Shown here: positions 47,864 to 54,604 of the stretch, piece after piece
How positions within the stretch are numbered: position 1 is the stretch's first letter
Layout: every line of letters begins with the position of its first letter
Assembly: GCA_947625555.1 (NCBI GenBank)
Contig: CANQOT010000008.1
Location: 1 to 64,000 of the forward strand
Origin: an uncultured Clostridia bacterium
Lineage (GTDB): Bacteria > Bacillota > Clostridia > Christensenellales > Borkfalkiaceae
DNA length: 64,000 nt
Reading direction: 5' to 3'
Program-made: the position numbers and the translations under genes
Notes under the pieces: generated by a model
What the model saw: only the letters and a program-made list of their open reading frames with translations
Database searches by the model: none
What the model was told of the DNA's origin: nothing

Positions 47864-47896
47864 TATCGCTGAAAGATCTTGAAGGAGGAAAGGCTC

Positions 47897-48883
47897 ATGT
47901 GGGACGTCGCTTTGGATGCGCTCATCGATACGTTGAAACTTTTCCCCTTCCTCTTTCTCTTGTATATCCTCATCGAGCTCATGGAGCACAACACCAAGGT
48001 GGGGAAGCCCTCGAAGGCCCTGACGGGCAGGTGGGCGCCCGCCCTCGGCGCCGCGACGGGCATTTTGCCGATGTGCGGGTTCTCGGTGATGGCGGCCAAA
48101 CTCTACGAGCACAGGCACGTCACGATCGGGACGCTCATCGCCGTCTTTATCGCAACGAGCGACGAGGGGCTCCTCGTCCTGCTCCTCTCCGACGGGATCG
48201 CATGGGGGCCCAAGCTCTATTCCCTCCTCGCGATGATCGGCTGCAAGCTCGCTTTGGGCATTGCGATGGGGTATCTTCTCGACGCGATATTCAAGCGCCG
48301 CCTCGCGCCCCTGCCCGAACAAAAGCACGCCCACATACACGTCGGCCACGACGAAGAGCACACCCATGTCGAGGAAGAGCACGAAGGGCATACCCATGTC
48401 GGCGATGAGGAACATGAAGATCACGACCACGGGGCATGCGCATGCGACGAGCTCTCCGCATGCGAACATAAAAAGACGAGCACGTTGCGGCTCTATCTTC
48501 TCTCGCCCCTCTTGCACGCGCTCGAAGTTGCGGCCTTCGTCCTCGCCGTCAACCTCGCCTTCGGGTATCTGTTCTACGCGCTCGGGGAGGAGAACGTCAT
48601 TAACTTTTTGCAGAATGCGGGATATTGGCTCCAACCCGTCATCTGTCCGCTCATCGGCGCCATCCCCAACTGCGCCTCCTCCGTGGTGCTCGCGGAGGTC
48701 TACGCCCTCGGGGGCATCGGGTTCGGCGGGTTCCTTGCGGGTCTCACCGTGAATGCGGGCCTCGGCTATCTCGTCCTTTTGAAGCGGGCGAGCTGGAAGA
48801 GGGGGCTCGTCATCTTCGGGTGCATGCTGCTCTTCTCCGTTGCGGTGGGGTATGCGGCGAGCGCCATTGCTCTTGCGATCTGA
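47897..48883 (+). CDS. Putative heavy-metal/arsenic-type permease with His-rich cytosolic loop (ArsP_2-like)
   Basis: Two TM bundles with GILPMCGFSVMAA and GAIPNCASSVVLAEVY motifs; linker HAHIHVGHDEEHTHVEEEHEGHTHVGDEEHEDHDHG. Confidence 0.8.
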   Translation: MWDVALDALIDTLKLFPFLFLLYILIELMEHNTKVGKPSKALTGRWAPALGAATGILPMCGFSVMAAKLYEHRHVTIGTLIAVFIATSDEGLLVLLLSDGIAWGPKLYSLLAMIGCKLALGIAMGYLLDAIFKRRLAPLPEQKHAHIHVGHDEEHTHVEEEHEGHTHVGDEEHEDHDHGACACDELSACEHKKTSTLRLYLLSPLLHALEVAAFVLAVNLAFGYLFYALGEENVINFLQNAGYWLQPVICPLIGAIPNCASSVVLAEVYALGGIGFGGFLAGLTVNAGLGYLVLLKRASWKRGLVIFGCMLLFSVAVGYAASAIALAI

Positions 48884-50777: not shown

Positions 50778-50803
50778 GTTTATTCGCGCGCCGCACGCGG
50801 TAT
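50778..50803 (+). promoter_or_regulatory. Candidate SigB-type promoter
   Basis: GTTTAT-14 bp-CGGTAT vs consensus GTTTAA-N12-15-GGGTAT (two mismatches in twelve). Confidence 0.5.
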
Positions 50804-50837
50804 ATAGTTATAGATAAGGTAACAGTGAGGTAGCCAT

Positions 50838-51146
50838 ATGCAGGAACTTACCCTTCTTTCCCGCACGCCCGAGCTCATCTTCGGGCTTTCGGGCGAGATC
50901 GACTCGCAGAACGCCGACGAATTTTATACCGAGGTCATCGAGGCGTACGAAAACGCCCCCGCCGATCTCATCTTCGACTGCGCCAAACTTGCATTTATCG
51001 ATTCGACGACGCTCGGGACCTTCGTCAAGATCCTCAAAAAATTGCAGGCTGACGGCCGCCGCATGAAGATCAGGAACCTCCAACCGAGGCTCAAAAAGCT
51101 CTTCGTCATCTGCGCGCTCGATACCATTATGGAGATAGAGGGATGA
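50838..51146 (+). CDS. STAS-domain anti-sigma factor antagonist (RsbV/SpoIIAA-like)
   Basis: LTLLSRTPELIFGLSGEIDSQNADEF...LIFDCAKLAFIDSTTLGTFVKI. Confidence 0.9.
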   Translation: MQELTLLSRTPELIFGLSGEIDSQNADEFYTEVIEAYENAPADLIFDCAKLAFIDSTTLGTFVKILKKLQADGRRMKIRNLQPRLKKLFVICALDTIMEIEG

Positions 51147-51505
51147 AAGGGCTTCTTTCGATGCGAATCCCTCTGGGGAGCGAACTTATGACGACGGTGC
51201 GGCTCACGACGGGCGGCGTCTGCGCCCTCAAAGGGCTGGATATCGATGCGAGCGAGGATTGCAAGGTGTGCGTGACGGAGAGCTTGCTGCTTTTGCGTCA
51301 TGCGGGATACGGAGAGGCCGCCGTCGATTTTTCCGACGACGACGGGCTCATGGTCGCGATCGAAGGCGCGGGGCGGCGCAAAAAGGCATCTCCCGCACCC
51401 GAGGACGAGATCTCGGCGGCACTTTTGGAAGCGCTCGCGGAGAGCGTTCGCATGGAGAAGAAGGAGGGCGCGATTTTTTCCGTCTCCTTCCGCTTTGCCC
51501 TGTGA
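51143..51505 (+). CDS. RsbW/SpoIIAB-like anti-sigma protein with degenerate N-box
   Basis: ATG overlaps upstream stop; MRIPLGSELMTTVRLTTGGVCALKGLDIDASEDCKVCVTESLLLLRHAGY. Confidence 0.7.
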   Translation: MKGLLSMRIPLGSELMTTVRLTTGGVCALKGLDIDASEDCKVCVTESLLLLRHAGYGEAAVDFSDDDGLMVAIEGAGRRKKASPAPEDEISAALLEALAESVRMEKKEGAIFSVSFRFAL

Positions 51506-52230
51506 TGGAAGAGCGGGAACTCTTTGAACGGTACAAGCAAACGGGCGATGTCGCCCTGCGCAATCAAATCGTCGAGAAGTACCTGTATATCGCCGCGGTG
51601 ATCGCGAAGAAGTTCGTGGGGCGCGGCGTCGAGTACGACGACCTGTATCAGGTCGCCGCGCTTGCGCTTATCAAAGGGGTGGACCGCTACGACGTAGATA
51701 AGGGCATCAAATTTTCCACCTTCATCACTCCCACCGTGACGGGGGAGATCAAGAACTATTTCCGCGACAGATCCCGCCTTGTGCACCTGCCTCGCAAGGT
51801 CGCGGAGCTTCGCACGGCCATCAAGAAGGCGACCGAGGAGCTCACGCGCGAGACGGGGCGCACGCCCACCGCAAGGGAACTCGCGGCGCGGCTCCACGTC
51901 TCGGAGGAAGAGATCGTCCAAAGCGCCGAGGCGGGCACGACCGTCTCTCTCGACCGCCCGATGGAGGAGGGGGAGGGGAGTTTTTACGACGTTCTCGCCA
52001 CGGGTGCGGAGAGCGATTTCGAGAAATTCGAAAACCGCGATGCGATGCGCGATGCGCTATCCACGCTCTCGGAGGCGGAACGGACGCTCGTCCGCCTGCG
52101 CTTCGGCGAGGAGCTCTCGCAGGTCGAGACGGCCAAGCGCATGAACGTCTCGCAGATGTACATTTCCCGTCTCGAACGCAAGGTCCTGCTCAAACTCAAA
52201 GAGACGATGCAGGGGGGGACGGCGCAATGA
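51505..52230 (+). CDS. SigB/SigF-family sigma factor
   Basis: YDDLYQVAALALIKGVDRYDVDKGIKFSTFITPTVTGEIKNYFRDRSRLVHLPRKVAEL; region 4 LRFGEELSQVETAKRMNVSQMYISRLERKVLLKL. Confidence 0.93.
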   Translation: MEERELFERYKQTGDVALRNQIVEKYLYIAAVIAKKFVGRGVEYDDLYQVAALALIKGVDRYDVDKGIKFSTFITPTVTGEIKNYFRDRSRLVHLPRKVAELRTAIKKATEELTRETGRTPTARELAARLHVSEEEIVQSAEAGTTVSLDRPMEEGEGSFYDVLATGAESDFEKFENRDAMRDALSTLSEAERTLVRLRFGEELSQVETAKRMNVSQMYISRLERKVLLKLKETMQGGTAQ

Positions 52231-52586
52231 AGATCTCAGACCATGCAACGCTCAAAGCGGAAGTCGCCCGCATGTGCGCGGCGCTCGGGGAGATGGGCGT
52301 GCCCGAAAATGCAGTCTTTTCGAGCAGGGTCGTGGCGCACGAGCTGCTCACCAACGCCTTGCAGTACGGCGGCGGGGTGGCGCAGTTCTCCTTCCGCATG
52401 ACGGGCGACGAGATCGCGATCTCCGTCCGTGCGGAACGCGCGTTCGAGCCGCCCAAGACGATCGCGCGGGCCGACCTCTATGCCGAACGCGGCAGGGGGC
52501 TCTACCTCGTCGACGCCCTCTCAAAGCGGCGCGAATATACGAGGGAGGAGGGCGTGTGCGCCTTCATCCCGATCATGGTCCGATAA
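52227..52586 (+). CDS. HATPase_c_2-type ATP-binding protein (RsbW/RsbT-like)
   Basis: N-box HELLTNALQYGGG; GRGLYLVDAL; ATG overlaps sigma stop. Confidence 0.85.
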   Translation: MKISDHATLKAEVARMCAALGEMGVPENAVFSSRVVAHELLTNALQYGGGVAQFSFRMTGDEIAISVRAERAFEPPKTIARADLYAERGRGLYLVDALSKRREYTREEGVCAFIPIMVR

Positions 52587-52662
52587 CAAAAAATATGGGT
52601 GCCCTGCCGAGCAGCAAGGCGCCTTTTTCGTACCCCTGCCTGAATTGGGGGCGAAAAGGTAC

Positions 52663-52696
52663 AAAAAAACAGGAGCCGCAGGGCTCCTGTTTTTTT
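52663..52696. terminator. Bidirectional terminator between convergent genes
   Basis: AAAAAAACAGGAGCC-GCA-GGGCTCCTGTTTTTTT. Confidence 0.88.
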
Positions 52697-52705
52697 ATGT
52701 GCGAT

Positions 52706-54604
52706 TTAGCCGTTGATGTACTTGAACACTTTGCCGAGGACGGCCGAGGAGATGTAGGGACGGAACTTGCCGAGGTAGACGAAGAACGTCTTGAAGAAGG
52801 TCGTATTGTCGCCGCCGATCTTGTAGGTGGGAAGGCCGAAGTCGCCCTTCTTCTTGCCGATGAACAGATCGCCGAACTCATCCTTTTCCGCAGTCGTGAG
52901 GCTGTTGAAGAAGGGATCGTAGACGTAGTTCGCGTTGCTTTCTTCCGTCGGTTCCGCAGGCGTCTCCGCTACGGGCGTTTCCGCAGGGGTAGCGACGGGT
53001 GCGGGAAGTGCTTCGGTTTCGGCCGCGGGCGTCTCCGCAGGCGTCTCCGTCGCGTTGCCCCTGACGAGTTCGAGCATCCTGCGCTCGAAGTCGCTCATCT
53101 CGGATTCAGCCGCAGGATCCGTCTCGGCGCTTTCTGCGGAGGTCCTTTCCACGGTGGGCTGGGACTGGCGGACGACCGTGTGCACGGGTTGCACGACGGG
53201 TTGGGTGACGGGCTGGATCACGGGCTGCAAAACGGGCTGAGGCACAGGCACGGCAACGGGTACGGGCACGGGAACATGCTGTACGATGGGCTGCTGGTAG
53301 TAAGGGTAGGGTTGCTGCTGCGCCTGAGGCACCTGGAAGAGCACCATGTTGGGCGAAGCGGGCTGCTGGGGCTGCTGAGGAGGATAGACCACCGTCTGCT
53401 GGGGCGCGCCGGCGGGAGCGGGCGCGGTAGCAGGAGCTGCCGTATAGGGAGCCGCATAGGGAGCGGGCGCGGGAGCCGCCGCGGGCGCATTGTTGATGTT
53501 GGTGACATAGGTGGGCGCGAAGTTGTTCTTCTGGGCGAAGGCCTCGCGTTCCGCTTTCTCCTGCTGTTCCTTCTCTTCGAAGAGGGCATCCTCGCGCTCT
53601 CTGCGCGCCTTGTTCCTGAGACGGATCGCAACGACGAGGAATACGATGAAGCCGATGAGAAGGGAGGCGAGAAGAAGGATGTTGGCGATGAGCCAGCCCA
53701 AGTTGACGCCCTTGGTGCCCTTGACGGTGCCGGCGAATACGAAGGAGAAGTCGCGGTATTGGATGAAGGCGACGACATAGAAGGCAACGGCGCCGAGGAA
53801 CAGGACGCCGAAGCGGATGGCGTCGAACGTGTAGCCGCGCTTGCCGGCAAAGCGGCAAACGGAGATAATCACATTGATGAGAAGGAGGTAGTAGAGTATA
53901 AAGCCGATGATCGTGTAGGTCTTATCGCCGAACTTGGTCACGCCTTGAAGCGCAATGCGGGAACTCTCCGACATGAGCGAACCGGGATAGGTCATCGCAA
54001 AGAATGCAACGATCGAGAAGAGGAACACGAAGATAGCGCCCGCGCCGTGGCCCTTATTGACGGCGCAACCCGCGATCGCAAGGATGATGACGCAGAGCGC
54101 CGCAACGAGGCAGATCGCGAGGTCGAACGTTTTGAGGCCGAGCGTGCCGGAGGTCATACCGATCGTGGAGGTCACCATGGCGAAGAGGACATAGGTGACG
54201 GTGACGAGGACGGCGCTCGTGAAGGCGCAGGCCTTGGCCGACTTCTTCGTGCAGAGCGCGACAATGAAGCACACGAGGGAGACGATCACGGCAATGACGA
54301 GCAGGAAGGCAAGGACGAGTTCGAGATATTGCCAGATACCCGTCAGTGTGCCCGAGTTGCCCTTAAAGAGGTTCTCAAAGACCACCCAGATGAAGCCGAA
54401 GAGCGTGCCCTGCAAGATCTTGGGCGTAGAGAGCCAGTCCAAGACGCCGAGCTTGCTCGTAAAATACGTGCTGGAAGCCCTCGAAAGCAGACCGATGAAG
54501 AGGCCGCCCGCAGCGAGCAGGAAGAAGATGATCCCGAGCGCGCGATAACCGCCTACGCGGGGCTGTTCTTCTTCGAGGTCCTCGTTTTCCAAGTTGTATT
54601 CCAT
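52706..54604 (-). CDS. Multi-TM membrane protein with long Pro/Gln/Val-rich linker and conserved-looking C-terminal domain
   Basis: Several TM helices; linker PAPAPYAAPYTAAPATAPAPAGAPQQTVVYPPQQPQQ...VPVPVPVAVPVPQPVLQPVIQP; tail EKDEFGDLFIGKKKGDFGLPTYKIGGDNTTFFKTFFVYLGKFR. Confidence 0.85.
   Translation of the reverse strand: MEYNLENEDLEEEQPRVGGYRALGIIFFLLAAGGLFIGLLSRASSTYFTSKLGVLDWLSTPKILQGTLFGFIWVVFENLFKGNSGTLTGIWQYLELVLAFLLVIAVIVSLVCFIVALCTKKSAKACAFTSAVLVTVTYVLFAMVTSTIGMTSGTLGLKTFDLAICLVAALCVIILAIAGCAVNKGHGAGAIFVFLFSIVAFFAMTYPGSLMSESSRIALQGVTKFGDKTYTIIGFILYYLLLINVIISVCRFAGKRGYTFDAIRFGVLFLGAVAFYVVAFIQYRDFSFVFAGTVKGTKGVNLGWLIANILLLASLLIGFIVFLVVAIRLRNKARREREDALFEEKEQQEKAEREAFAQKNNFAPTYVTNINNAPAAAPAPAPYAAPYTAAPATAPAPAGAPQQTVVYPPQQPQQPASPNMVLFQVPQAQQQPYPYYQQPIVQHVPVPVPVAVPVPQPVLQPVIQPVTQPVVQPVHTVVRQSQPTVERTSAESAETDPAAESEMSDFERRMLELVRGNATETPAETPAAETEALPAPVATPAETPVAETPAEPTEESNANYVYDPFFNSLTTAEKDEFGDLFIGKKKGDFGLPTYKIGGDNTTFFKTFFVYLGKFRPYISSAVLGKVFKYING

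Follow-up and report, generated by a model that had tools for sequence, protein, structure and literature searches.

The four-gene operon at positions 50,838–52,586 of the window (the whole 64,000-nucleotide stretch of DNA that was analyzed) probably encodes a SigB-type partner switch in which the two jobs of RsbW are divided, with one protein (W, a degenerate RsbW) predicted to hold the sigma factor and another (K, a second HATPase_c_2 protein) predicted to act as the kinase of the STAS antagonist. Viewed across the class Clostridia, these operons appear to represent a variant of partner switching with anti-sigma and kinase duties on separate proteins, a reading for which their anatomy and co-occurrence argue strongly.

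The window comes from a 1.65 Mb genome that is 99% complete. The four genes lie on the plus strand with successive overlaps of 4, 1, and 4 bases (ATGA, TGATG, and ATGA). The first (50,838..51,146) encodes a 102-aa RsbV-like STAS anti-anti-sigma factor (PF01740, 2.6e-18) with a predicted phosphoacceptor, Ser56 (codon 51,003–51,005), and it is followed by the genes for W (51,143..51,505; 120 aa), a 241-aa RNA polymerase sigma factor of the SigB/F/G type (51,505..52,230), and K (52,227..52,586; 119 aa; PF13581, 2.9e-8). The sigma factor contains Sigma70 regions 2, 3, and 4, and its best NCBIfam model is SigBFG (5.4e-66), with a score of 222.5 bits that is slightly under the cut-off of 234.35; its gene adjoins an anti-sigma gene in the family loci, and its closest named relatives are from Candidatus Gallimonas and uncultured gut Clostridia. 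Coordinates, overlaps, and Pfam and NCBIfam matches thus bear out the initial annotation, which had read this segment as an operon of STAS, RsbW-like, SigB/F-like sigma, and HATPase genes. Upstream of the operon, a SigB/SigF-type promoter, GTTT-N17-GGTATA (50,778..50,804, plus strand), is the sole match to this pattern in the window, where 0.06 would be expected, and sites of this type precede 77 of the 88 family operons versus 1.3 in shuffles, making autoregulation by the operon's own sigma factor probable. An intrinsic terminator (52,663..52,696, plus strand) ends the operon (fold of 52,655–52,705: −27.8 kcal/mol, z −7.8). The gene beyond it (52,706..54,604, minus strand) converges on the terminator and encodes a 632-aa protein with Pro/Ala-rich stretches and no Pfam match. 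Farther upstream of the operon (47,879..48,883) lies a gene for an ArsP_2-type exporter of heavy metals that contains a His-rich stretch.

In the window's family, W was found by search in 93 of 201 genomes. The initial annotation had named a neighborhood survey as a check on the four-gene order, and the survey found the identical set, in identical order and mostly with 4- or 1-bp overlaps, in 110 of 112 family loci, so that the arrangement is not a product of chance. The remaining two are the spoIIA locus and a locus cut by a contig end. Because the 112 loci include some places that were fetched twice, the alignment comprises 89 distinct W proteins.

Sequence and structure models both place W within the RsbW fold as a degenerate member. 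It matches PF13581 at only 0.051, its match to the RsbW model (2.5e-6) covers the first ~50 residues (4–49), and with the curated RsbW model it scores 27.0 bits, below the cut-off of 155.05. An AF2 model of W (pLDDT 95.4) has RsbW, UsfX, and SpoIIAB as its best PDB folds. The residues of the N, G1, and G2 ATP motifs (N50, D81, G107, and G109) are lost in all 21 family representatives. As the initial annotation had observed, the N-box Asn is missing, its site being occupied by Leu50 in the window and by Leu in at least 90% of family sequences; the absence of a clear ATP lid, also pointed out there, agrees with the model, in which a short helix comes straight after the strand following the G1 position, leaving no room for a lid. 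Class-wide, too, degenerate W proteins no longer have N50 and D81. At the same time, R20, D39, K41, T45, and E46 do not vary among 79 family sequences, and class-wide R20 is found in 142 of 143 W proteins, E46 in all, and D39 and K41 in all or nearly all. In the RsbV-RsbW structure, Arg23, Asp42, Lys44/Ser48, and Glu49 of RsbW touch RsbV, and Glu49 reaches the phosphoacceptor Ser56 (PMC7340262). These RsbV-contact residues are the invariant positions of W, and the STAS contacts are likewise kept, with F53, D55, S56, and K87 in 89/89 family sequences and I91 in 88/89, which argues that the antagonist-binding surface is preserved on both sides. Judging from these residues, W is an RsbW-fold protein with a retained antagonist-binding surface and no ATP site, and its STAS partner has the conserved phosphoacceptor Ser of a partner-switching antagonist in every one of the 89 sequences.

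Order-wide and class-wide profile searches gave 134 evaluable loci, after exclusion of several apparent K-less loci in which the sequence ended or was masked downstream of sigma. Where W is degenerate, K directly follows sigma in 76 of 103 loci (24 of 28 families; family codes, such as f4 and f31, are those of the genome search tool). By contrast, adjacent K was found in none of the 17 loci with an intact W (10 families), a group that is under-sampled because the loci were collected with a degenerate-W profile, and in none of the 14 SpoIIAB loci. When four genomes with an intact W were searched with the K profile, W itself was the sole match. Exceptions, with a degenerate W but no K next to sigma, come from f4, f23, f63, f78, and one genus of f31. 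Despite this, f63 and f78 carry a K with every motif at an unlinked locus, and so does f195, a family outside the class that likewise combines a degenerate W with no adjacent K; in both f63 and f78 (L314–L317), the unlinked K gene lies between engB-like and typA-like GTPase genes (named by eye). In f4 and f23, the operon is without STAS too, and no K was found in six genomes searched; these loci (L146, L149, L156–L158, L160–L164, L166–L169, and L172) consist of a W and sigma pair, and in most of the genomes sampled a single STAS gene is present at another site. In the f31 genus g102 (L165, L170, L171, and L174), the loci contain STAS, degenerate W, and sigma, but the two genomes searched (G332 and G396) yielded no K. 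In two other f31 genomes (G230 and G252; operons L178 and L179), the sole STAS gene is that of the four-gene operon, and no SpoIIAA was found. On the sigma tree, whose deep branches are weak, a minimum of three changes accounts for W degeneration and five for K. With so few changes, the counts represent an old, maintained association rather than many independent trials, and we therefore set aside the Fisher p of 1e-14 calculated by locus.

A PAS-PP2C phosphatase encoded elsewhere in the genome (P0005), with the usual Asp motifs present by eye, has homologs that agree with W in 196 of 201 family genomes (both in 89, neither in 107) and are discordant in five (W only in four, phosphatase only in one), making P0005 a candidate phosphatase for the operon's STAS protein. 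The genome encodes two STAS proteins and two PP2C phosphatases (one SpoIIE-like), and its only three HATPase_c_2 matches are SpoIIAB, K, and one histidine kinase.

The evidence on K is less uniform. E39 and N43 of the N-box and G89, R90, and G91 of the G2 GRG motif are invariant in 80 family sequences, confirming the N-box (ELLTN) and GRGL motif for which the initial annotation had singled K out; the loss of the G1 Asp, which is Ala69 in the window, escaped that annotation. In the GHKL ATPase fold, this Asp is the usual adenine contact. It is replaced by Ser, Gly, Ala, or Cys in all 21 K representatives of the window's family, which makes ATP binding by K there uncertain. Among 76 K proteins class-wide, 50 keep N, G1, and G2, 24 are without the G1 Asp only (21 of them from the window's family), and two are without other motifs; the N-box Glu is found in 76/76 and the Asn in 75/76, while R20 is found in only 10/76. 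The AF2 model of K (pLDDT 91.0) has SpoIIAB and RsbW as its best PDB folds, and with the RsbA family NF041045 K scores 32.8 bits, below 210. One K homolog in f22 (L150:1184–1561) is the reverse of the window's K, keeping the G1 Asp without the N-box Asn and GRG. The kinase/holdase split that the initial annotation had put forward is largely supported: W keeps its contact residues and has lost its ATP motifs, K shows the reverse, and these two conditions are paired class-wide, but the motif set of K is incomplete in 21 of 21 family representatives. Against the split count this missing Asp, the few independent events on the trees, and the f31 genus g102 without detected K.

Neither W nor K of the window's family keeps the adenine-binding Asp; W has no ATP site, and that of K would be a remodeled one with the N-box and GRG still in place. 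K could then take up nucleotide by a novel mode, or exert its regulation without any, while the Ser56 phosphoswitch is kept, a possibility that we regard as rather doubtful. We consider it unlikely that K in this family has ceased to be an ATP-dependent kinase altogether and modulates W or STAS by binding, with the Ser phosphorylated by cross-talk from SpoIIAB, by an unrelated kinase, or never. The 21 substituted G1 positions would fit such a protein, and there is a precedent in RsbW3 of Mycobacterium smegmatis, a non-kinase RsbW homolog that binds RsbW1 (PMC7693655). However, the invariance of Ser56 and of the remaining K motifs, together with the co-occurrence of W with a PAS-PP2C phosphatase that has its own motifs, argues that phosphorylation persists. 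For the window's own copy of K, we infer from these motifs a role as STAS-Ser kinase.

An obligate heterodimer of W and K, jointly holding sigma and phosphorylating STAS, is highly improbable, even though RsbW and SpoIIAB are dimers (PMC7340262), the models of W and K both fit the RsbW/SpoIIAB fold, and most families have the two genes in tight linkage. K forms a single clade apart from all W and SpoIIAB (SH-aLRT 100) and so is no recent copy of W; a profile-profile comparison of the two gave E 3e-4 with a probability of just 39%, and what relates them is the match of both models to the RsbW/SpoIIAB fold. Moreover, K does not keep R20, and three families have it at an unlinked locus. When 143 concatenated operons (effective number ~105) were analyzed by mean-field DCA, W-K couplings showed no enrichment, but the test had little power, since even the STAS-W interface, which served as positive control, did not stand out. 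The heterodimeric anti-sigma suggested in the initial annotation thus gained no positive support, given the separate clades and the missing conserved R20 of K. It is hardly credible that W is an ordinary bifunctional RsbW with merely divergent motifs and K is functionally unrelated, because, although W keeps E46, whose RsbW equivalent contacts the phosphoacceptor Ser, it has lost N, G1, and G2 and its model has no space for an ATP lid, and none of the 17 loci with an intact RsbW has an adjacent K.

Under the division of labor between a holdase and a kinase, W would bind and hold sigma and would be unable to use ATP. Unphosphorylated STAS would bind W via the usual RsbW surface, thereby releasing sigma, and K would switch STAS off by phosphorylating Ser56. 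The PAS-PP2C phosphatase P0005 would undo this phosphorylation upon a signal sensed by its PAS domain. Released sigma would then drive transcription of its own operon from the GTTT-N17-GGTATA promoter, and probably also that of a small set of stress genes. Gene order, the loss and retention of motifs, the co-occurrences, and the conserved promoter are observations, whereas the binding and phosphorylation steps, the way in which the switch runs, and its role in stress are what we infer. With the strict promoter pattern, the genome has five sites versus two in the reversed-pattern control. One is that of the operon, two belong to genes for Hsp20 and a CobW-type GTPase, one to a gene for a ~122-aa protein that falls in no known family, and the fifth has no clear gene. 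These sites are suggestive only of a small stress regulon that may include the Hsp20 and CobW-type GTPase genes. A first, looser pattern was rejected, as its eight matches versus six in the reversed-pattern control showed no clear enrichment.

The distribution of these operons suggests that much of the Clostridia, including gut lineages, divides SigB-type control between a holdase and a distinct kinase instead of relying on the textbook bifunctional RsbW. Such a split makes it testable how holding and kinase duties separate and are tuned independently. It also serves as a warning that labeling RsbW-like genes as "anti-sigma kinases" without exception would often be wrong.

Among known systems, the RsbV-RsbW-SigB module of Bacillus has a STAS protein, an RsbW-fold anti-sigma factor, and a SigB-type sigma factor in the same order, as well as a SigB-type promoter and a PP2C phosphatase in the genome. 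It differs in that RsbW does both jobs, whereas W in the window is without ATP motifs and sigma is followed by K as a fourth gene. The SpoIIAA-SpoIIAB-SigF system of the window's own genome, encoded at a separate locus on another contig (C36, L001), is a homologous three-gene partner switch; unlike W, its SpoIIAB has all ATP motifs. UsfX of M. tuberculosis (PDB 8jzt and 8ih8) is a solved RsbW-fold anti-sigma factor to which the W profile matches at 6e-5, in an alignment that shows UsfX without an N-box Asn. It belongs, however, to another phylum than the window's Clostridia. We know of no adjacent K gene in the UsfX system.

A parallel in function is the SigF system of M. smegmatis, where anti-sigma and kinase duties have been shown experimentally to lie on separate RsbW homologs (PMC7693655). 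There, RsbW1 binds SigF and has no kinase activity. RsbW2 carries the N, G1, and G2 motifs and phosphorylates RsfB without binding SigF, and RsbW3 antagonizes RsbW1, to which it binds. The split in the window is, by comparison, a prediction from sequence. In addition, RsbW2 has all three motifs, whereas the window's K is without the G1 Asp, although 50 of 76 K homologs have the full set. The M. smegmatis RsbW homologs are encoded at three separate loci, in contrast to the Clostridia, where both W and K lie within one overlapping operon. A literature search of open-licence papers retrieved no description of a split switch as one operon or in Clostridia or Christensenellales. Overall, one actinobacterium was already known to divide the labor in this way, with the genes scattered over the genome, and the one-operon version, as predicted here for the Clostridia, appears to be newly noted.
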